Source: Nitrospira sp.
GTDB taxonomy: Bacteria > Nitrospirota > Nitrospiria > Nitrospirales > Nitrospiraceae
Assembly (NCBI GenBank): GCA_015709715.1
Contig: CP054184.1
Location: 3,147,001 to 3,211,000 of the forward strand
DNA: 64,000 nt
Direction of reading: 5' to 3'
A program made the position numbers and the translations under genes. The stretch's first letter is position 1. Each line of letters begins with the position of its first letter. This document shows positions 52,999 through 64,000 of the stretch, in pieces. Under the pieces are notes generated by a model. It did not search any database and was not told the DNA's origin. It was given only the letters and a program-made list of their open reading frames with translations.

Positions 52999-53618
52999 AT
53001 CTCCGTTCGCATCGCCTGCGAGTCCCATTGGAGGCGAAGGGCTGTCTCAGAGATGCGGTTGAGGTTGTCTGCTCCGAGTGCGCTCCAGCTCCACCCCCCT
53101 GTGTGTTCTTCCTGGCCCAGCGGACTCCCCGTGTCTGTCTTATCCGCATCCGGACGTCGTATTCCCGATCTCATCTGGCACTAAATCGCTACCTACCACC
53201 TGATCCGTCCGTCGCGAATCGCTCGCAGCCGTAAGGTGTGACCTGTCTGGCCCTAATCGATCCGGACGCGCGCGGCCCGAAAAGATGTCGATCGCCGGAA
53301 AAGGTTGCCCATCAACCAATCAAGCGATTCTGCTGTCTGCACGCGGGCGGTCTGTCAAAAAGAAAACATACGTAGACAAGAATGTGACAAGGTGTCATAC
53401 CTAAGTACGCCCTAGCTCCTAGGCCATTTTTACATCTTGCAACGGTTTGTCAAGATGGCTATCCTGCACCCGGCGATTGCGCTTCGGCAGCTCATCTCGC
53501 CAGTCAGTGAAATGCCCTCGCGGCACTTACCAACACATTCTTAAGAGGGAGCTCTTACGGCCCACGCGTATTCGTAATGACTGATTTCAATAAGCATACG
53601 ATCGGGGAGGATTCCCCT
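52999..53618. other. leader region of the export cluster
   Basis: 620 nt without a supported gene. It holds two exact inverted repeats, TGACA-agg-TGTCA (53385-53397) and TAAGAG-ggag-CTCTTA (53542-53557), likely upstream control elements of the cluster. No standard promoter could be assigned with confidence. Confidence 0.5.
53542..53557 (+). promoter_or_regulatory. inverted repeat upstream of the export cluster
   Basis: Six-base arms TAAGAG / CTCTTA separated by GGAG, 61 nt before the chosen start codon of the first gene. It may be an operator or an mRNA stem in the leader. Confidence 0.4.
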
Positions 53619-55043
53619 ATGCTGCATTCTTCTTCTACCGAGGGCAGCGCCTCCGCCGATCCTCACTCCTTACCTCTCGAATCATTCAAGGCCGTGCTGG
53701 ACATGACGGCATTGGCCTTGGAACCGGAACGATTCACCGACGCTGGCTCCGCAGTGGTGACTGCTCTGGCAAGCCGGCTGGCGTGTGATCGCGTCAGCCT
53801 TGGAATGGCGAGCCGGAATCGGGTGCGGGTGCGCGCCCTCTCCCACAATGCTGAATTCAATCACAAGACCGACCTTTTGAGTGCGATTACTGCATCCATG
53901 GAGGAAGCGTGGGATCAACAGCACACGGTTTTGTTGCCTGCGCCGGCAGGTTGGCCGTCGCAATGTACCCGCGCGCATGAGGAACTCCGACGTCGGTATG
54001 GGGCACTGACGATTTGCTCCCTTCCACTGTGGTCCCATGGCCGAATGGTCGGGGTATTGACGTGTGAACGCGGTGGGGATCGACCGTTCGATCGCCCGAC
54101 GGTGGAGTTATGCGAGGCCATAGCTGGATTGGTTGGCCCCGCTCTTGATCTCAAGCGTCAGCAGGATCGTGCGTTGCCTTTCAAAGTGTGGGAAAGTGCC
54201 TGTCGGCAGATCGGAAAAGTGATCGGGGGGGGGCACATCGGTGTGAAATTGTCTCTGCTGCTGTTCATTGCCACTGCTGTCGCCGTCGCGACCGTCGCAG
54301 GAGAATTTCGTATCAGCTCAAAAGCCGTGTTGGAAGGGGAGGTACAGCGGGTGGCTGCCGCTCCCTTCCAAGGATATGTGAAGACGGCGCCGGCACGCGC
54401 TGGCGATATCGTGAAGGCCGGTCAAGTCTTAGCTACCCTCCAGGATCGTGACCTGCAATTGGAACGCCTCAAGCATCTCAACGAGCGCGAACAACTGGCC
54501 AAGGAACAGCGCCAGGCCCTCGCTGAACGGAATGCTCCGAAGGCGGAAATTCTCAATGCTCAGCTGCGACAAGTCCAAGCCCAGCTCGACCTTGCCTCCG
54601 AGAAATTGTCCCGAACCCAGATCACGGCACCGTTCCCCGGTATCGTGGTATCCGGTGATTTGAGTCAGCAGCTGGGTGCGCCGGTGGAAGAAGGGAAAGT
54701 GTTGTTTGAGGTGGCCCCGCTCGATACGTACCGGATTGTCCTCGAAGTCGACGAACACGATATTGGGCACGTCGCCGTTGGACAGTCCGGTAATCTCCTG
54801 TTGTCGGCGTTGCCGGCGGACCTGCTCCCGTTTGAAGTCGCCAAGATCACGCCGGTATCGACTGCGAAAGATGGGAGGAATTTTTTCCGAGTCGAGGGTC
54901 GGTTGTTGACGAAACCGTCGCAACTCAGGCCTGCCATGGAAGGCGTGGGGAAGATCGTCGTCGGGAGGCGACTCCTGGCATGGATCTGGACGCACGATGT
55001 CCTGGAGTGGGTGCGGCTGAAGCTGTGGGCCTGGCTTCCCTGA
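53619..55043 (+). CDS. GAF-HlyD membrane-fusion adaptor
   Basis: 474 residues from ATG 53619 (GGGGAGGATT upstream; ATG 53577 would add 14 but has no ribosome site). A GAF-like domain covers about 15-185 (VTALASRLACDRVSLGMASRN, GALTICSLPLWSHGRMVGVLTCER). A membrane helix near 220-240 is followed by an HlyD-type lipoyl domain split by a coiled coil (about 275-345: LQLERLKHLNEREQLAKEQRQ) and ending in a beta-barrel (TYRIVLEVDEHDIGHVAVGQ). The unusual cytoplasmic GAF could gate or sense, with the periplasmic half acting as adaptor. It is the first gene of the export cluster, 12 nt before the M50 gene. Confidence 0.88.
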   Translation: MLHSSSTEGSASADPHSLPLESFKAVLDMTALALEPERFTDAGSAVVTALASRLACDRVSLGMASRNRVRVRALSHNAEFNHKTDLLSAITASMEEAWDQQHTVLLPAPAGWPSQCTRAHEELRRRYGALTICSLPLWSHGRMVGVLTCERGGDRPFDRPTVELCEAIAGLVGPALDLKRQQDRALPFKVWESACRQIGKVIGGGHIGVKLSLLLFIATAVAVATVAGEFRISSKAVLEGEVQRVAAAPFQGYVKTAPARAGDIVKAGQVLATLQDRDLQLERLKHLNEREQLAKEQRQALAERNAPKAEILNAQLRQVQAQLDLASEKLSRTQITAPFPGIVVSGDLSQQLGAPVEEGKVLFEVAPLDTYRIVLEVDEHDIGHVAVGQSGNLLLSALPADLLPFEVAKITPVSTAKDGRNFFRVEGRLLTKPSQLRPAMEGVGKIVVGRRLLAWIWTHDVLEWVRLKLWAWLP

Positions 55044-55055
55044 GAAGAGGATCTG

Positions 55056-57203
55056 GTGAGTGAATCGTTCTTCAGCGCCTCGTGGTATCGCGTCGAGGGA
55101 CTGAGACCCCGGCTACGCAGTCACCTGCGCGTCCACCGGCATCAGTATCGCGGACACACGTGGTATGTCCTGCAAGACCTTGCGACCGATCGGTTTCACC
55201 GATTTTCACCGGAGGCCTATGCACTCATTGGGCTCATGGATGGCCGGCGCACCGTCCATGAGATCTGGGAACAGGCCAGCGAGCGATTGGGCGACGAGGC
55301 GCCGACTCAACACGATGTGATCGGCCTCATCAGTCAGCTCCACGCCGGTGATGCACTCTTGTTCGATCAAGCTCCGGACATGGCCGAGTTATCCAACAGA
55401 TCCGCAACCCAGGTGCGGCGAAAACGGTACAACCAGTTGGCCAATCTCTTTTCATGGCGGTCTCCCCTGTGTGATCCGGACCGATTCTTGACGCGATGGT
55501 TACCTCTCGTGCGACCGTTTATCTCGAAGATGGGGTTGGTCCTTTGGACCGCACTTGTGATGGGTGGCGTCGTGTTAGGCGGAATTCACTGGCCCGATCT
55601 CTCCCACAATTTTTTTGACCAGGCGCTGGCGCCGCAGAACCTGGTTTGGTTGTGGCTGCTGTTTCCCTTGCTGAAGTTGTGTCATGAGCTGGGGCATGGC
55701 TTTATGGCGAAAGCGTTTGGGGCAGAGGTCCATGAGCTGGGAGTGATGATGCTGGTCTGTACGCCGGTGCCCTATGTCGAGACGACAGCAGCCTGGGGAT
55801 TTCGAAACAAGTGGCACCGCATTTTGGTGAGCGGCGCGGGGATGATGGTCGAGTTGGCACTGGCCTCGCTGGCCCTCCTGGTGTGGATCAATGCAGAACC
55901 CGGCGTCGTGCGGATGCTCGCGTACAACACCATCCTAATCGCCGGGGTTTCTACGGTGATTTTTAACGCGAATCCGTTGCTGCGCTTCGACGGCTATTTC
56001 ATGCTGATGGACTTTCTCGAAATTCCAAACATGAAGCATCGGGCCGGACGATATTTCGCTTACTTGACCGAGCGTTATCTTCTCGGGCAGCACGAGGCGG
56101 AATTGCCGGAGGCGACCGTCGGCGAACGCCTATGGTTCGTCTTGTATGGGGCGGCCTCATCTCTCTATCGCATCGTGGTTGTCGTCGGCATCCTCTTATT
56201 CTTGGGCGACCAGATGCCCCTGCTGGCAGTGCTGTTTGCACTGTTCACCGGGGGGATGCTCGTCGTGGTGCCGATCGGCAAGGGGCTCAGCTTCTTGCTC
56301 ACGAGTCCGAGACTTCACCTGATTCGAGCGCGGGCCTTGGCTACGGTGGTTTGTTTAGTCGCGGCGTTGGCGGGTGTGGTCGGGTTTATACCCGTGCCGT
56401 TTCGTACGGTGACGGAGGGCGTGGTGTGGCTGTCGGATGAGGCCATGGTGCGGGCCGGAACCGATGGATTTGTGGATCGAGTCGTGGCGAGGCCGGGTTC
56501 TCACGTGGAAGCGGGGGAGGTCTTGTTGCTTTGCACGAATGTGGAGTTGCGCGCGCAGTTGAGCGTGTTGGAGGCTCGCCTTCAAGAACTACGGGCGCGT
56601 CACACGGAACAGGAGCCCACCGATCGCACGAAAGCACAGATTCTGGAAGAAGAAATGAAGTACGTGACTCAGGAGCGGGACCGCATCCGTGAGCGAGTCG
56701 ACTACCTGGTCGTTCGAAGCAAGCAGGCCGGAACGTTCGTGGTACCGCGGGAGCAAGATCTTCCCGGTAAGTACGTCCATCAGGGTGACCTGATAGGGCA
56801 GGTGCTGGACCTGCGGACGGTGACGGTGCGCACCCTCGTGCCCCAACAGGAAATCGATTTAGTGCGCCACCAATTGGAGGGGGTGGAAGTCCGTTTGGCC
56901 GAGCAGGTGGCGAAGGCGCAGCCGGCTTCCCTCGTGCGTCTCGTGCCGGCGGCTACCAACCAACTGCCCAGTCCTGCTCTCGGGAGTCAGGGCGGCGGAC
57001 AGGCCCCCCTAGCTCCCGCCGATGACAAGGGACTGACGGCACTGGATCGATTTTTCCAGGCCGATCTCACCCTGCCCAATTCTATGGCGTTGTTGGATGC
57101 CGGCGGGCGAGCCTATGTACGCTTCGATCATGGGGCGATGCCCCTCATGTCGCAGTGGATTCGGCAACTCCGGCAACTCTTTTTGGCGCGATTCAATGTC
57201 TAG
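55056..57203 (+). CDS. PqqD-M50 peptidase-lipoyl membrane protein
   Basis: 715 residues from GTG 55056. An N-terminal PqqD-like domain (about 20-105: VLQDLATDRFHRFSPEAYALIGLMDGRRT) could bind a peptide. The membrane core is a site-2-type metalloprotease: HELGH at 210-214 and NPLLRFDGY with Asp312, spread over about eight helices (145-430). The C-terminal half holds a lipoyl/biotinyl-type module (about 465-510), a coiled coil and a second half-module, the HlyD arrangement. It may process or thread a peptide and join the adaptor ring. The next gene's ATG overlaps its stop by 8 nt. Confidence 0.9.
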   Translation: MSESFFSASWYRVEGLRPRLRSHLRVHRHQYRGHTWYVLQDLATDRFHRFSPEAYALIGLMDGRRTVHEIWEQASERLGDEAPTQHDVIGLISQLHAGDALLFDQAPDMAELSNRSATQVRRKRYNQLANLFSWRSPLCDPDRFLTRWLPLVRPFISKMGLVLWTALVMGGVVLGGIHWPDLSHNFFDQALAPQNLVWLWLLFPLLKLCHELGHGFMAKAFGAEVHELGVMMLVCTPVPYVETTAAWGFRNKWHRILVSGAGMMVELALASLALLVWINAEPGVVRMLAYNTILIAGVSTVIFNANPLLRFDGYFMLMDFLEIPNMKHRAGRYFAYLTERYLLGQHEAELPEATVGERLWFVLYGAASSLYRIVVVVGILLFLGDQMPLLAVLFALFTGGMLVVVPIGKGLSFLLTSPRLHLIRARALATVVCLVAALAGVVGFIPVPFRTVTEGVVWLSDEAMVRAGTDGFVDRVVARPGSHVEAGEVLLLCTNVELRAQLSVLEARLQELRARHTEQEPTDRTKAQILEEEMKYVTQERDRIRERVDYLVVRSKQAGTFVVPREQDLPGKYVHQGDLIGQVLDLRTVTVRTLVPQQEIDLVRHQLEGVEVRLAEQVAKAQPASLVRLVPAATNQLPSPALGSQGGGQAPLAPADDKGLTALDRFFQADLTLPNSMALLDAGGRAYVRFDHGAMPLMSQWIRQLRQLFLARFNV

Positions 57204-59187
57204 GTCGATAGCATCATCGGTGATGCAGGGGCTCGCGTATCCCGAACGCCAGATGCCCGTCACTGGAAAGCTGGACCGATGGGCGCATACGGCGCTCACG
57301 CCGGTCATGCGCCGTCTGCGTGCCGCTACCATTCGTCGAGGGACTTGGATCAGGCAAGTGACTCTGGCCGGAGCGGACTGTGCCTCGTTACGTCCGGAGG
57401 GTATCAGGGGTCGCGCTCGAGACCTTCGGGCGTCCTTGACGAGGGCCGGTTTCCAGCCGGAGTTGGCAGCCCAGGCATTTGCTCTGGTGCGTGAAGCGGC
57501 CTCTCGCACTGTCGGGATGCGGCACTTCGATGTGCAACTTCTCGGTGGATGGATTTTGCTCACCGGGCGAGTGGCCGAAATGGAGACCGGAGAAGGCAAG
57601 ACCCTCACGGCGACGCTTCCCGCCTGCACGGCGGCTTTAGCCGGCCTGTCGGTCCATATCGTCACCGTCAATGACTACCTGGCGGCCCGGGATGCGGACT
57701 TGATGCGCCCCATCTATGAAGCCCTAGGCCTGTCGGTCGGAACGGTGCTGCAGGGCATGTCCCCGGCGGATCGCCGGGCTGCTTATGCCTGCGACATTAC
57801 CTATTGCACAGGCAAAGAGTTGGCATTCGATTATTTGAAAGATCGGCTTCTCGTCGGGGCCGCATCTAATCGTACCCAGGTTCAACTCGGACGCTTGCAT
57901 CGTCGCCAAGCCTCCGCGGCGGATTTCCTGCTGCGAGGCCTTCACTATGCGATTGTCGACGAAGCCGACAGCATCTTGATCGACGAAGCCAAGACGCCTC
58001 TGGTCATTGCCCGTTGCACGGACAATGCGGCGGAGCAAACCACCTATGCGGAGGCGTTACACATTGCCCGGCAGTTAGTGATGGGGCGCGATTTCGTAGT
58101 GGATCAGGCTGAGCGCACCGTACGAGTGCGACCGTCAGGAGATGCACGTGCGGCGGAGTTGGCCGCCGGTCTCGGCGGAGTATGGCGCGGCCGTCGGCGC
58201 CGCGATGCCCTCGTCCATCAAGCCCTTGTTGCGTTGCATCTGTTTCATCGGGACCAACAATATCTGGTGCAGGAATCCAAAGTGCAGATCATCGACGAAT
58301 ACACCGGCCGTGTGATGCCTGACCGTTCCTGGGAACACGGACTCCATCAAATGATCCAGACGAAGGAACGCTGCCCGCTGGATCATCATCGAAGCACAAT
58401 GGCGAGAATCAGTTATCAGCGATTTTTCCGCCGCTACTTGCGTCTAGCCGGCATGACCGGCACCGCTCAGGAGGTGGCATCGGAATTATGGGGGGTCTAC
58501 AGGCTTGGTGTGGTGCGGGTGCCGCCGAACCGTCCCGTCCGGCGAAAACGACTGTCTGATCAGATCTACGCAACGGCGGATGAAAAATGGCAGGCGGTTG
58601 TGGTTTCCGTCTCGGCGATGGCGCAACGCGGCCGGCCTGTGCTTGTCGGGACGAGAACGGTGGCGGCGTCCGAGCATCTCAGCCGCCTCCTTCAAGCCGC
58701 AGGCCTGCCGCACCAGGTGTTGAATGCCAGACAGGATCGGGATGAGGCCGCTGTAATCAGTCGGGCCGCCGAGCCGGGCCGCATCACCGTGGCGACGAAC
58801 ATGGCCGGTCGTGGCACGGACATCCGCCTGGATCCGTCCGTGGTTGAGCGTGGTGGCCTGCACGTGATTGCGACGGAACGTCACGAAGCCGGACGCATTG
58901 ACCGCCAATTGTTCGGACGGTGCGGCCGGCAGGGCGATCCGGGCAGCTATCAAACCATCCTCGCCCTCGACGATGAGGTACTCGTCGATCATGGCGGGTG
59001 GGTGTCGCGGGCGATTGCCGGAGCCTTCGGTGTAACCGGAATGTGTCTGCCGCGGTGGGTGGGGGGCAGCTTGTTTCGCCTCGCGCAGCGGCGGGCCGAA
59101 CGGGTGCATGCCCGCATGCGTCGGGGCATACTCAAGATGGATGAGCAGTTGGATTCCACACTGGCGTTCAGCGGCCGTTCGGAATAG
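57196..59187 (+). CDS. SecA-like ATPase lacking the canonical C-terminal domains
   Basis: 663 residues from ATG 57196. SecA motor motifs are intact: METGEGKT (Walker A, TGEGKT 131-136), DEAD at 255-258 in DEADSILIDEAKTP, IIDEYTGRVMPDRSWEHGLHQ of the preprotein-binding/ATPase region, TNMAGRGTDI at about 534-543, and FGRCGRQGDPG. Canonical SecA is about 900 residues, with a helical scaffold, wing and zinc tail after GRQGD. Only about 65 residues remain here, and no zinc-binding CxCxnCH is present. It probably powers export of a dedicated substrate. Catalytic residues look complete. Confidence 0.92.
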   Translation: MSRSIASSVMQGLAYPERQMPVTGKLDRWAHTALTPVMRRLRAATIRRGTWIRQVTLAGADCASLRPEGIRGRARDLRASLTRAGFQPELAAQAFALVREAASRTVGMRHFDVQLLGGWILLTGRVAEMETGEGKTLTATLPACTAALAGLSVHIVTVNDYLAARDADLMRPIYEALGLSVGTVLQGMSPADRRAAYACDITYCTGKELAFDYLKDRLLVGAASNRTQVQLGRLHRRQASAADFLLRGLHYAIVDEADSILIDEAKTPLVIARCTDNAAEQTTYAEALHIARQLVMGRDFVVDQAERTVRVRPSGDARAAELAAGLGGVWRGRRRRDALVHQALVALHLFHRDQQYLVQESKVQIIDEYTGRVMPDRSWEHGLHQMIQTKERCPLDHHRSTMARISYQRFFRRYLRLAGMTGTAQEVASELWGVYRLGVVRVPPNRPVRRKRLSDQIYATADEKWQAVVVSVSAMAQRGRPVLVGTRTVAASEHLSRLLQAAGLPHQVLNARQDRDEAAVISRAAEPGRITVATNMAGRGTDIRLDPSVVERGGLHVIATERHEAGRIDRQLFGRCGRQGDPGSYQTILALDDEVLVDHGGWVSRAIAGAFGVTGMCLPRWVGGSLFRLAQRRAERVHARMRRGILKMDEQLDSTLAFSGRSE

Positions 59188-59196
59188 GAAAAGATC

Positions 59197-59868
59197 ATGG
59201 GTAAAGAACGACTGATGCTTCAGGGAGTGATTGCCGCTTGGATCGGGGTGCATCTTCTGCTTGCGCAGCCGGCGATGGGACATGCTGCCGAATTGAGCTG
59301 TCTGATTCAGCCCTATGTGGTGATTACCATTACCAGCCCCGTCGGCGGCCTGTTGGAAAACGTGGCGGTGGATCGCGGAGACCTGATCAAGGAGGGCCAG
59401 ACTCTGGCCGTCCTCGATACCAGCGTCGAGCGAGCGACCGGTGCCGTGGCCCATGCGCAGGCCGAATTGACGAATCGTCGCTTGGCGGATTTGGAATTGC
59501 AACGAACGTCTGCTGAAGTGGCCTTGCGCACCATCCGTAGCCCGATCAACGGGGTGGTGGTGGAGCGCTACATGTCACCAGGAGAGTTTCCCAAGCAGGA
59601 GCGCATCATGAAATTGGCGCAAATCAATCCGTTGCGGGTGGAAGCGTATGCACCGGTCTCGCTGCTTGGAAAAATCACCGTCGGGATGGAATTGCAGGTG
59701 AAGCCCGAGGCGCCGGTGAGCGGCACGTACAAAGCTACGGTGACCGTGGTGGATCGTGTGGTGGATGCGGCCAGCGGCACCTTCGGTGTCCGTCTGGAAT
59801 TGCCCAATCCGGATTTGAAGTTGGCCGCTGGGCTGAAGTGTTCGATGGTTGTGCCTGGTAGTAAGTAG
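59197..59868 (+). CDS. short HlyD-like periplasmic protein 1
   Basis: 223 residues with a signal peptide (about 8-31). A lipoyl-type hairpin (ITSPVGGLLENVAVDRGDLIKEGQTLAVLD) leads straight to a brief coiled coil (about 75-105), then RSPINGVVVERYMSPGE and a barrel-like C-terminus. The coiled coil is much shorter than in classic HlyD proteins. No membrane anchor beyond the signal peptide. It sits directly upstream of the exoprotein gene and is paralogous to the 62061-62906 protein. Confidence 0.85.
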   Translation: MGKERLMLQGVIAAWIGVHLLLAQPAMGHAAELSCLIQPYVVITITSPVGGLLENVAVDRGDLIKEGQTLAVLDTSVERATGAVAHAQAELTNRRLADLELQRTSAEVALRTIRSPINGVVVERYMSPGEFPKQERIMKLAQINPLRVEAYAPVSLLGKITVGMELQVKPEAPVSGTYKATVTVVDRVVDAASGTFGVRLELPNPDLKLAAGLKCSMVVPGSK

Positions 59869-59929: not shown

Positions 59930-61996
59930 ATGAGAGAAAGCGGATATTTCTCGAGGTTGCGGGAGCTGCTAACGAATCAGAGAAGCGGACGCAAGGGGGC
60001 TCTCGCAAGACGGCGGCGCGCGAAGCGCGCCTCTCCCTTCAGGATGGAACAGCTTGAGGCACGGGTGTTACTGGCCGGAGACCTGGCCGGCGCCACGCTG
60101 CAGGCTGCGGTGGTGCAAGAGCAATACACGGAAGGGGCGATCAACATTCAAAACGGCGTACAGGATTCGGGCTATCGCTATCGAGTGCGCCAGGATTTTG
60201 GAACCCAGTCCGATTCCAGTGCTGCGCCAACCGTCTCCGTGCTACGAATTTACGAGAACGGTGTGGAACTAGGACCGGCCCATTCGCGCCATGACGACAT
60301 TGCGACGAAGGGCCAGGGGCGGTTCAGTCATTGGGTGGACAATCTCTATTTCTCTGCGTCGGACAACTCGAATCCGCTGACCAATGGACGGTCCTATACG
60401 TACCGGATCTATACGGACGGAAGCACATCGACGACCTCGTCTTCTACGAACACCACGACGTCCGGAACGACGACGACGTCAACCTATGTGCAGGGATCTA
60501 TAAATATGTCCCAGGCAATCCGGGACTCCGGGTATCGGTATGAGGTACGCCAGGACTTCGGGACGGCATCGGACTCGAACGCGGAGCCGACGATATCCAA
60601 GCTGAGGATCTATGAGAACGGTGTGGAACTGGGACCGGCCCATTCACGCCATGACGACATTGCGACGAAGGGCCAGGGGCGGTTCAGTCATTGGGGGGAT
60701 AATCTTTATTTTTCGTCTTCTGACAACTCGAATCCGCTGACCAACGGGCGATCTTACACGTACCGGGTCTATACGGATGGAAGTACGTCGACCACGACGA
60801 CGTCTCCCTCGACCACGACCACCTCTCCGACGACCACGACGACGACCACGAGTAGTGGCTCCGTCAAAACGGATTTCGGAGTCTACAAGGAGCCGGCGTT
60901 ACCGTCCCTTCCTTCTGCTGGCTCCAAGATTGTCGATCCGACCTTTGGCACGACCATCATGCGCCTGACCGATAGCAAGGACGGCAGTACGGACGCGTTC
61001 GTGGGGTATAGCAATTTGCCGTCCTTCAACAGGGATAACACATACGTGATGGCGGTGGAGCAACTGGGGCAGAAGCGGGCCAAGTTCTATGCGTTTGACC
61101 CTGTCAACTTCAAGGCCAGCGGCGGATTTGTCTTGAGCAAACCACCGGCAGGGCTGCAAGAGTATGGGTTGATTTGGAGTGGCGTCAATCGACAAGTGAC
61201 GTTCGGAGTCGGTCAAAACAAAATCTGGCAGGTTGATGTGTCGACTCAACAGGCGACGCTGGTGAAAGACCTGACGTCCTATGGGGCCGGAGGCTATATC
61301 ACACAGATGTCGAAGAGCCTCAACGATGATGTGTTTTCTGCTTCTATCGTGAACAGCAGCGGGTCGACGGTTGGGTATGTCGTGTACAAGCGAAGTACCG
61401 ACCAAGTATTGGTGCGGAAACTCGTCAGCGGTCTCGACGAGACCCAAGTGGACAAGTCGGGTCGGTATTTCATCGCCGTCTACAAGGATGGTCACGATGA
61501 AATCTGGGATCTGCAGGCCGGGCCAAAACTGACCGCCACACTTTCTGGTAGTTCTGGATTCAAGCATCGGGACACCGGTTTCGGCACGGCGTTCACTTCC
61601 TATTCTGGTAATTCACTCGGATTCCGGCAGCTGTCGTCGCCGACTACGGTGAAGGCCTTGGTCCCAGGGTATTGGGGCTACAGTGCGAACAATCAGCAGG
61701 ACCACTTCTCTCTGTTGGCCGACAATGAAGGGTGGGGGCTCGCCAGCCGATATTCCACAACCGGCAGCGGAGTTGCCAAGACATTCGATAACGAAATCGT
61801 CTTGGTCGCCACCAACGGCAGCAATCAGGTGAGGCGGCTCGCACATCATCGGAGCGTGGTGAACGACTACTATGATCAGCCCAAAGCCAATATCAGCCGC
61901 GATGGGCAGTTCATCGCCTTTACCAGCAATTGGGGGAATGCCAGCGGTCGACGGGACGTGTATATCGTGAAGGTTCCGCCGGCTCCGGTCATTTAA
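59930..61996 (+). CDS. LEPR-XLL-tagged exoprotein with tandem repeats and a propeller-like C-terminus
   Basis: 688 residues from ATG 59930 (GAGGGGAGG upstream). There is no normal signal peptide. A basic N-terminus (RRRRAKRASPFR) leads to the tag LEARVLLAGD at 42-51, a variant of the LEPR-XLL sorting sequence of large secreted proteins. Two near-identical modules of about 100 residues follow (GYRYRVRQDFGT... and ENGVELGPAHSRHDDIATKGQGRF), each ended by a Thr/Ser-rich linker. From about 310 the chain has recurring WD/TolB-like elements ending in ISRDGQFIAFTSNWGNASGRRDVYIVKV. Likely substrate of the surrounding export genes. The biological role of the exoprotein is unknown. Confidence 0.82.
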   Translation: MRESGYFSRLRELLTNQRSGRKGALARRRRAKRASPFRMEQLEARVLLAGDLAGATLQAAVVQEQYTEGAINIQNGVQDSGYRYRVRQDFGTQSDSSAAPTVSVLRIYENGVELGPAHSRHDDIATKGQGRFSHWVDNLYFSASDNSNPLTNGRSYTYRIYTDGSTSTTSSSTNTTTSGTTTTSTYVQGSINMSQAIRDSGYRYEVRQDFGTASDSNAEPTISKLRIYENGVELGPAHSRHDDIATKGQGRFSHWGDNLYFSSSDNSNPLTNGRSYTYRVYTDGSTSTTTTSPSTTTTSPTTTTTTTSSGSVKTDFGVYKEPALPSLPSAGSKIVDPTFGTTIMRLTDSKDGSTDAFVGYSNLPSFNRDNTYVMAVEQLGQKRAKFYAFDPVNFKASGGFVLSKPPAGLQEYGLIWSGVNRQVTFGVGQNKIWQVDVSTQQATLVKDLTSYGAGGYITQMSKSLNDDVFSASIVNSSGSTVGYVVYKRSTDQVLVRKLVSGLDETQVDKSGRYFIAVYKDGHDEIWDLQAGPKLTATLSGSSGFKHRDTGFGTAFTSYSGNSLGFRQLSSPTTVKALVPGYWGYSANNQQDHFSLLADNEGWGLASRYSTTGSGVAKTFDNEIVLVATNGSNQVRRLAHHRSVVNDYYDQPKANISRDGQFIAFTSNWGNASGRRDVYIVKVPPAPVI
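60121..60787 (+). repeat. two near-identical repeat units, 360-bp period
   Basis: Units at about 60121-60427 and 60481-60787 are in frame and 360 bp apart. Their core (for example GAGAACGGTGTGGAACT at 60254 and 60614) is almost identical at DNA level, which suggests recent duplication or gene conversion. Thr/Ser-rich linkers follow each unit. Confidence 0.85.
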
Positions 61997-62060: not shown

Positions 62061-62906
62061 ATGAAACAGGCAGAGAATCGGCGTGGGCGGCATCAGAGCC
62101 GCCTTCGCTATGTGAGCCCACTGTTCATCGCGGGGGTCATCTGTTGGGCAGGATGGGCGGAGGCCAAATCCGAGTTGCCCTGCCTCGTGGTGCCACAGGT
62201 TACACTGACGGTCGGGACCCCGGTCGTCGGTGTGCTCAATAGCGTGGTGGTTAACCAAGGCGATATGGTGAAGGAAGGCGATGTGTTGGCCACGCTGGAG
62301 TCCAGTCTTGAGCAGGCCGAGGTCGCGTTGGCCAAGGCCAAAGCCGAAATGGATGCTGCTGAGAAAAGTACGCAGATGAAAGCTGAATTCAGCCTCAGGA
62401 AATCCGCTCGTGCGAAGGACTTGGGGAAGACCTCCGCGATGGCGCACCACGAAGTCGATGAAGCGGAAACCGAGGAGCGCTTGGCTCAAGTCGCCCATAT
62501 GGAAGCATTGGAGAATAAACGGGTGGCGCAACTGGAGTTGGCGCGGGCCACGGCGGCACTGGAGCTGCGGACCGTCCGTAGCCCGATCACCGGCATCGTC
62601 GTTGAGCGATTTTTGTCTCCTGGAGAGTTGGTGAAGCAAGCGCCGATCATGAAATTAGCTCGACTAGACCCTCTGCTGGTGGAAGTGTTGGCCCCCCTCT
62701 CCTGGCTGGGGAAACTATCGGCCGGCATGAGGGGCGAGGTGCGGCTGGAATGGCCGTCGGCCGGTCCTCACCAGGCCCGTGTGACGGTCGTTAATCCCGT
62801 CGTCAACAGCGCCAGTGGCACCTTCGAAGTGCTGCTCGAACTCCCGAATCCCGGCTACAAGATTCCGGCCGGCCTCTCCTGCGTCGTGCATTTTCCCTCG
62901 CAGTAG
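62061..62906 (+). CDS. short HlyD-like periplasmic protein 2
   Basis: 281 residues with an N-terminal export signal (about 17-35). A lipoyl-type hairpin (GTPVVGVLNSVVVNQGDMVKEGDVLATLE) is split by a longer coiled coil (about 80-170), then RSPITGIVVERFLSPGELVKQ and LPNPGYKIPAGLSC. The motif set matches the 59197-59868 protein, so the two arose by duplication. Placed just after the exoprotein gene. Confidence 0.85.
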   Translation: MKQAENRRGRHQSRLRYVSPLFIAGVICWAGWAEAKSELPCLVVPQVTLTVGTPVVGVLNSVVVNQGDMVKEGDVLATLESSLEQAEVALAKAKAEMDAAEKSTQMKAEFSLRKSARAKDLGKTSAMAHHEVDEAETEERLAQVAHMEALENKRVAQLELARATAALELRTVRSPITGIVVERFLSPGELVKQAPIMKLARLDPLLVEVLAPLSWLGKLSAGMRGEVRLEWPSAGPHQARVTVVNPVVNSASGTFEVLLELPNPGYKIPAGLSCVVHFPSQ

Positions 62907-63059: not shown

Positions 63060-64000
63060 ATGAAACCGTCTTTCATCCTGAGCGGCTTGTTTTGCCTGTT
63101 CTTCTGCGTGTTCTGTCTTAGCGATCCATCGGCCGGGGCGCCGCCCGATCCTGGCTCGGCTCCGGAGCGGCCGGAGCTTCGTCTGACCCTTCGGGAAGCG
63201 ATGGAGGCGGCCGTGGATAACAACCCCAATGTGCGCCTGTTTAAGGAACGGATCGAGACGGCGCGGGCTGCGAGCAAGACGCAGCTCGGCGCCCTATTGC
63301 CCAACCTTTCCTCGAACGTCCGCCAGACGAGGCAAAACGTCTTTCTGGGAACGATCGGATTGGCGCCGGTTCGCACGGACCCGTTCAGCATCTTTGATGC
63401 TCGGGCGAATGTGTCTCAGTCGCTGTTCAGCCTGAGCTTGATCCAGCGGTGGCGTGCCTCACGAGAGGCCCTGAAGGTGGCGGAGTTGGAGTCGGAGTCG
63501 ACAAAGTTCGACACGATGTCGGCCGTCGGTTTGCTGTATGTCGAGGCGCTCAAAGCCGAGGCAACGGTCAATACCAGGAGTGCCAATATGCAGTTGTTCG
63601 AGGAACTCCTCGAACTGGCCAGGAACCGACGTGGGGGCGGGATGGGGACGGGGCTAGATACCGCCCGCTTGGAGGCGCAATTGGAGAATGAGCGTCAGCA
63701 ACTTGCCATAGCCCGCTCGGAAGTGGAACGGCTCAAGATCAATATTTTGCACGGACTGGGTTTTGCCTTCGATGTTCGACTGGTCCTCACTGATTCCCTC
63801 AAATTGGAAGTGCCGGAGCCTCCCAACGAGGAGGCGGCGGTGGTGACAGCGATGAATCAGCGTATGGAAGTCAAGGCCCAGCAGCAGCGGATAAGGACGG
63901 CATCGCTCACGTTGAATTCCACTGAAACTGAACGGGTGCCGTCGCTGGCGGCACAGGGAGACTACGGCCTGATCGGAAACCGAATGCACAACACGCTCGA
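63060..64000 (+). CDS. TolC-family outer-membrane channel (3' end outside window)
   Basis: The frame opens at ATG 63060 (AAAGGGG upstream) and stays open to the last base, giving about 313 residues. A signal peptide (about 1-27, cleaved near PSAGAPP) is followed by an OEP repeat: LTLREAMEAAVDNNPNVRLFKERIETARA, then LLPNLSSNVRQTRQ and VSQSLFSLSLIQRWRASREALKVAE. This is the outer-membrane channel expected for a trans-envelope export machine and completes the set with the HlyD-like proteins. Confidence 0.93.
   Translation, partial: MKPSFILSGLFCLFFCVFCLSDPSAGAPPDPGSAPERPELRLTLREAMEAAVDNNPNVRLFKERIETARAASKTQLGALLPNLSSNVRQTRQNVFLGTIGLAPVRTDPFSIFDARANVSQSLFSLSLIQRWRASREALKVAELESESTKFDTMSAVGLLYVEALKAEATVNTRSANMQLFEELLELARNRRGGGMGTGLDTARLEAQLENERQQLAIARSEVERLKINILHGLGFAFDVRLVLTDSLKLEVPEPPNEEAAVVTAMNQRMEVKAQQQRIRTASLTLNSTETERVPSLAAQGDYGLIGNRMHNTL

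Follow-up and report, generated by a model that had tools for sequence, protein, structure and literature searches.

A LEPR-XLL tag in Nitrospira as the probable leader of the export cassette that surrounds it

Here, I show by computation that the LEPR-XLL tag at the N-terminus of a Nitrospira protein is strongly linked to the gene cassette in which that protein is encoded: the M50-HlyD protein of the cassette occurs in 23 of 27 tag-bearing genomes vs 9 of 545 tagless ones (572 in total). The tag is nearly confined to genomes with the cassette and usually adjacent to it, and is therefore probably the address label of an exporter. The reading that I favour, with a probability of about 0.72, is that LEPR-XLL is a leader for the surrounding exporter, with RRE-like binding, probable cleavage by an M50 protease and export through HlyD and TolC proteins. 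Many giant proteins are known to carry the tag, and the secondary SecA locus has been an orphan; each would explain the other.

The tagged gene and its cassette

The window, i.e. the whole stretch of 64,000 nucleotides that was analysed, corresponds to G000:C1:3147001-3211000 in a genome (G000) of 4.16 Mb. All genes of the cassette lie on the + strand. The tagged gene follows those for GAF-HlyD, the PqqD-M50-HlyD fusion, the SecA-like ATPase and a short HlyD, and precedes those for a further HlyD and TolC:

53577..55043, + strand: GAF-HlyD membrane-fusion protein, 488 aa (GAF PF01590 42.9 bits, HlyD_3 65.7 bits)
55056..57203, + strand: fusion of a predicted PqqD/RRE part, M50 protease and HlyD, 715 aa (PqqD, M50 and HlyD_3 domains)
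57196..59187, + strand: secondary SecA-like ATPase, 663 aa from the ATG at 57196 (SecA profile matches)
59197..59868, + strand: short HlyD adaptor (HlyD_3 59.5 bits; N-terminal hydrophobic stretch)
59930..61996, + strand: LEPR-XLL-tagged cargo protein, 688 aa (NF012209 match)
59930..60046, + strand: basic N-terminal tag segment, residues 1-39 (charge +10 over residues 1-40, no hydrophobic core)
60038..60106, + strand: LEPR-XLL core, residues 37-59, FRMEQLEARVLLAGDLAGATLQA (NF012209 positions 1-23)
62061..62906, + strand: HlyD periplasmic adaptor, 281 aa (RND_mfp 112 bits, above cut-off)
63060..64000, + strand: TolC-family outer-membrane protein (OEP 69 bits)

The nearest named relative of the cassette is found in Candidatus Nitrospira defluvii, the proteins being ~80% identical, and a GAF-HlyD gene adjoins nearly every cassette M50-HlyD scoring >500 bits. 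The SecA-like protein matches SecA_DEAD (337 bits), SecA_PP_bind (85.8) and P-loop_SecA (181.7); it thus retains the DEAD motor as well as the preprotein cross-linking and P-loop domains, and stops where the scaffold helix starts. SecA_SW (wing/scaffold) was matched in none of the 13 members of the SecA-like family. Canonical SecA is encoded away from the cassette (G000:C1:1737462); the SecA-like model scores the two SecA genes of the genome at 1117 and 527 bits. Scans for promoters and terminators returned signals no more frequent than chance.

The two HlyD paralogues at 59197-59868 and 62061-62906, which flank the tagged gene, are 42% identical with a gap, the former having ~53 middle residues fewer, perhaps those of a coiled-coil hairpin; the short form is found again in several Nitrospira cassettes (L057, L058, L059, L061, L064, L076 and L087). 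The TolC-family ORF extends beyond the window to ~G000:C1:3211397 and is complete as L016 908-2398. No ABC transporter is encoded within the cassette; downstream of it lie a C39-like ABC transporter (L016 2852-5038) and an RTX protein (L016 6105-11102). An IS-type transposase gene (L016 5045-6073) immediately precedes the latter, a 1665-aa RTX-repeat ORF, the two together occupying ~G000:C1 3214044-3220101; this ORF seemingly has no N-terminus, and a disruption of the giant RTX gene is possible.

The tagged ORF has 688 open codons. A purine-rich AGAGGGGAGG precedes the ATG at 59930 with a spacer of 6 nt, and farther upstream there is little sequence conservation with the closest relative; 59930 is thus the likely start. 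The protein consists of the tag, two internal repeats of ~100 aa each, Thr-rich linkers and a C-terminal region, and is 83% identical to its counterpart in Ca. Nitrospira defluvii. No Pfam domain was found in it over its cut-off, and a PDB sequence search gave nothing useful; its AlphaFold model, built from two sequences, has a pLDDT of 38, for which reason no fold is claimed. From its context, it is predicted to be a secreted or surface protein.

The tag is real

The initial annotation had likened the N-terminus to LEPR-XLL, with Ala in place of Pro and Gly-Asp in place of Ala-Asp, had noted the lack of an ordinary signal peptide, and had guessed that the tag adjoins its prospective user genes. 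The family identity is confirmed: residues 37-59 (FRMEQLEARVLLAGDLAG...) match NCBIfam NF012209 (LEPR-XLL) with 21.6 bits (E 1.1e-4), the curated threshold being 17, and a genome-level search with the same profile gave 26.7 bits (E 2.8e-5). Even with this sequence left out of its construction, a tag model recovered it with ~26 bits (E ~1e-6 among 10,718 ORFs). The match to PF07595 (Planc_extracel), which was defined in Planctomycetes, stays at 12.9 bits, under the cut-off of 25.5. Both substitutions fall inside natural variation: an alignment of 44 tags has P in 28 and A in 2 at the Pro position, and A in 38 and G in 3 at the Ala position, with two E, one R and one L conserved throughout.

The absence of an ordinary signal peptide is equally borne out by hydropathy. 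The best 19-residue Kyte-Doolittle mean of the cargo N-terminus is -0.15, i.e. there is no Sec-like hydrophobic core, vs 1.3-1.7 in the adjacent, seemingly Sec-targeted HlyD proteins; residues 1-40 carry a net charge of +10, and no Tat-like h-region was seen in the N-terminus on inspection by eye. Nearly all the other tags likewise have no hydrophobic core. The homologue in Ca. Nitrospira defluvii carries an identical tag core, FRMEQLEARVLLAGDLA, so that the tag is retained in a close relative, contrary to the absence that would have refuted the initial annotation. The genome-wide profile search gave this tag as the single copy in G000, apart from weak matches (L002-L005).

Tag and cassette occur together

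The tag was searched with NF012209, and M50-HlyD with profiles A1 or A3, in the same genomes of Nitrospirota, Acetobacterales and Gammaproteobacteria. Strong M50-HlyD proteins are those scoring >300 bits, the gammaproteobacterial scores showing a gap from 253 to 366. Tag and M50-HlyD are both present in 6 Nitrospirota genomes, with the tag only in 1, M50-HlyD only in 1 and neither in 140 (Fisher p 3.7e-9); the corresponding figures are 2, 0, 1 and 147 in Acetobacterales (p 2.7e-4) and 15, 3, 7 and 249 in Gammaproteobacteria (p 6.8e-17), all three p values being too small, since genomes share ancestry and are not independent. Among the exceptions, G137 and G547 possess a divergent exporter that adjoins a variant tag (see below), G043 has a tag which NF012209 missed, and M50-HlyD was not detected in the tagged genomes G536 and G399, the latter seemingly incomplete. 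With a broader tag model (A5), 12 of the 22 cassette genomes in which NF012209 had given no tag proved to carry one (9 of 19 once three genomes are dropped whose tags were part of the model or close to it); the 58 cassette-free genomes yielded none.

Wherever tag and M50-HlyD lie on one contig they are neighbours (21 of 21 pairs), most of them at <5 kb; 20 pairs are within 7 kb and one is at 13 kb. Gene order varies between the groups, which argues that tag and cassette are not one inherited block. The shortest tagged ORF, a fragment, has ~145 aa and the longest 14,112. The weak M50-HlyD proteins (<=253 bits) that are common in Nitrospira were set aside as a group separate from that of the cassette; they have no SecA-like gene beside them and mostly no tags. 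In G588, FEELEERRLFSGG (L190 317, - strand) is a degenerate tag that adjoins a cassette and was missed by both models.

Ten plasmid records, selected solely by M50-HlyD similarity, served as held-out loci. Their hosts are Rhizobium (two), Mesorhizobium, Sinorhizobium, Pseudosulfitobacter, Methylosinus, Alisedimentitalea, Pontibrevibacter, Pseudohalocynthiibacter and Thalassospira. A large tagged gene lies directly upstream of M50-HlyD in all ten. The tag model detected nine of these tags, that of Methylosinus weakly (E 0.009), and the tenth, YEPRLLLSAD in Pseudohalocynthiibacter, was recognised by reading the ORF; NCBI annotates LEPR-XLL on two of the ten genes. The proposal that the tag adjoins its would-be users therefore holds, in the three bacterial groups as well as in the same-contig pairs and the plasmid loci.

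In alphaproteobacterial plasmids (L211, L213, L214, L216, L217, L218 and L224), a small DUF3467 gene sits between the giant tagged gene and the HlyD genes; its product may be an unrecognised accessory part of the exporter system.

A candidate reader of the tag

In the protein at 55056..57203, a PqqD-like region (residues ~18-97) is followed by HELGH (210-214), D312 and a C-terminal HlyD part. Across 17 members of the family, PqqD is matched in 14, M50 in 16 and HlyD_3 in all. PF05402 (PqqD) scores 21.1 bits on the Nitrospira protein, just under its cut-off of 23.4, and reaches E 7.6e-7 in the best member. The predicted structure of the N-terminal domain has a pLDDT of 85, and 17 of its 20 top Foldseek matches contain an RRE (RiPP recognition element), with probabilities of 0.94-1.00, TM up to 0.63 and weak E values (best 2.5e-3). 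The top PDB matches are lasso-peptide B1 proteins with leader, sactipeptide and cyanobactin enzymes and TglHI, the leader-bound RREs including 6jx3, 5v1u and 4v1t. The N-terminus is thus predicted to fold like a winged-helix RRE.

As for the protease, H210, E211, H214 and D312 are invariant in the 17 members, i.e. the HExxH motif and the distal Asp are present. By sequence, the M50 domain resembles RiPP maturation proteases, scoring 156.4 bits against daptide_HExxH (NF041824; cut-off 300) and 35.7 bits against the LiaK profile, in both cases under the cut-off.

Cassettes without SecA and divergent exporters

No SecA-like gene was found in G529, G513, G302 and G216, though cargo and M50-HlyD are present in these four cassette-bearing genomes. 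The SecA-like protein is thereby ruled out as an obligatory partner; its motor step is not universal, and the motor is common yet dispensable. In G404, the SecA-like gene is not beside M50-HlyD but on another contig.

A divergent exporter together with a divergent tag, LEPR-[LM][LM]-FDGA, is found in G137, G547 and G485, the tag being close to the M50 gene. Among Gammaproteobacteria, the FDGA variant occurs in 3 of 9 genomes with this type-2 M50-HlyD, the search of the remaining six yielding none, and in 1 of 265 without it. On these few cases, the sequences fit a tag and a reader that change together. The loci L184 and L185 show a second version of the exporter without SecA (TolC, HlyD, a HlyD protein of ~490 aa and M50-HlyD), with the tag variant LEPRLLFDGAA; the cargo of L185 has DUF4347.

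Proposed mechanism and alternatives

From these data I infer recognition and binding, cleavage, export and the direction and energy of transport as follows. The leader would consist of a basic stretch and F-x-L-E-x-L-E-x-R-x-L-L-[SA]-[AG]-D, and would direct its protein to the surrounding exporter. In the cytoplasm, the tag may be bound by the PqqD/RRE-like N-terminus of M50-HlyD, after which the intramembrane M50 metalloprotease probably removes it near the LL-[SA]-A-D junction. The chain would then exit via a conduit formed by M50-HlyD, GAF-HlyD, HlyD adaptors and TolC, and in the Nitrospira cassette the truncated SecA-like ATPase, instead of an ABC transporter, probably drives or starts translocation.

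That the resemblance to LEPR-XLL is a matter of chance might be argued from the shortness of the motif and from the Ala that replaces Pro, yet this has already been refuted by scores above the curated cut-off, by the ~26 bits obtained when the sequence was left out, and by a core that is identical in the homologue, N-terminal, and present as a single copy adjoining the cassette. The preprotein cross-linking domain of the SecA-like protein next door could, in turn, suggest that the ordinary translocon handles this N-terminus as an unusual signal peptide of the Sec or Tat kind; the strong positive charge here, the missing hydrophobic core, here and in nearly all tags, the conserved charges of the motif (E, E and R), and the absence of a second SecA from several tagged systems make this very unlikely.

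More serious consideration is due to ordinary type I export. The type I route also employs HlyD and TolC, the genes just downstream include one for a C39-like ABC transporter and one for an RTX protein, and some tagged proteins have RTX repeats; the cargo might thus leave through HlyD, TolC and that ABC transporter by means of a C-terminal signal, the tag serving later processing or surface sorting by the M50 protein. I consider this unlikely, for the cassette recurs without an adjoining ABC transporter, also in the loci described by Kamneva, Poudel and Ward (2015; PMC4452313), no tag was detected on the downstream RTX protein, and the tag follows M50-HlyD in three groups regardless of the other genes. 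It could also be that the tag follows mobile islands of giant surface proteins, in which case tag and cassette would merely travel together, linked without recognition, and the reader would be elsewhere, e.g. a chaperone or the ribosome. The cassette does move horizontally (PMC4452313) and does occur on plasmids; nonetheless, the co-occurrence persists with tag and cassette on different contigs, gene orders differ, unlike cargo proteins have a common tag, and the tag variant shifts with the exporter variant, all of which renders this explanation quite improbable.

The leader reading is hence preferred. A wider claim, to which I give slightly better than even odds, is that of an unrecognised Gram-negative secretion pathway, extending from Nitrospira to Alpha- and Gammaproteobacteria and serving cargo of up to ~14,000 residues, in which an RRE/protease/HlyD protein reads LEPR-XLL, often with a truncated SecA motor and without an ABC transporter. 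If the link between tag and cassette is right, some of the largest bacterial proteins (ORFs up to 14,112 aa) would have an exit route, leader recognition of the RiPP type would also apply to large secreted proteins, and cargo could be predicted by a sequence rule. The Nitrospira case is compact (one cassette, one tag, a cargo of 688 aa) and thus convenient for tests.

Relation to known systems

The locus to which the Nitrospira cassette belongs was described by Kamneva et al. (2015; PMC4452313) as a secondary SecA_DEAD with M50/HlyD, GAF/HlyD, HlyD and sometimes OEP genes. They counted Nitrospirae among its holders, reported it from Methylobacterium extorquens AM1 as well, and proposed SecA_DEAD as the ATPase and M50 as the membrane pore, calling the broader role of the locus completely unknown. 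Like that locus, the cassette unites SecA_DEAD, M50-HlyD, GAF-HlyD, HlyD and OEP genes; beyond it, a tagged cargo is encoded inside, and the PqqD/RRE part is recognised. Their text names neither substrate nor signal, and LEPR and PF07595 are absent from it (PMC4452313). In the open-licence literature, a partial sample, no published link between tag and locus and no named LEPR-XLL exporter was found.

The LEPR-XLL family (NF012209, LEPR-8K; PF07595) comprises predicted extracellular proteins with the same N-terminal motif and preceding basic region. Compared with its giants, the Nitrospira cargo is small, its tag has Ala for Pro and Gly for Ala, and it falls under the PF07595 cut-off. HlyD adaptors and TolC are common to the cassette and to type I secretion (HlyB-HlyD-TolC), whereas the cassette has no ABC transporter and its putative signal is N-terminal rather than C-terminal. 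Accessory SecA2 is likewise a second SecA that presumably serves a subset of proteins, yet the SecA-like protein of the cassette lacks SecA_SW as well as C-terminal parts, and its gene lies among those for HlyD/M50 instead of accessory Sec genes. With RiPP leader systems (RRE; daptide and LiaK/YydH M50-type proteases), the cassette shares the fusion of an RRE-like part with an M50-type protease and an N-terminal leader; it differs from them in that the cargo is a large protein instead of a short peptide, HlyD is fused to the protease, and the M50 domain scores under the cut-offs of the daptide and LiaK proteases.
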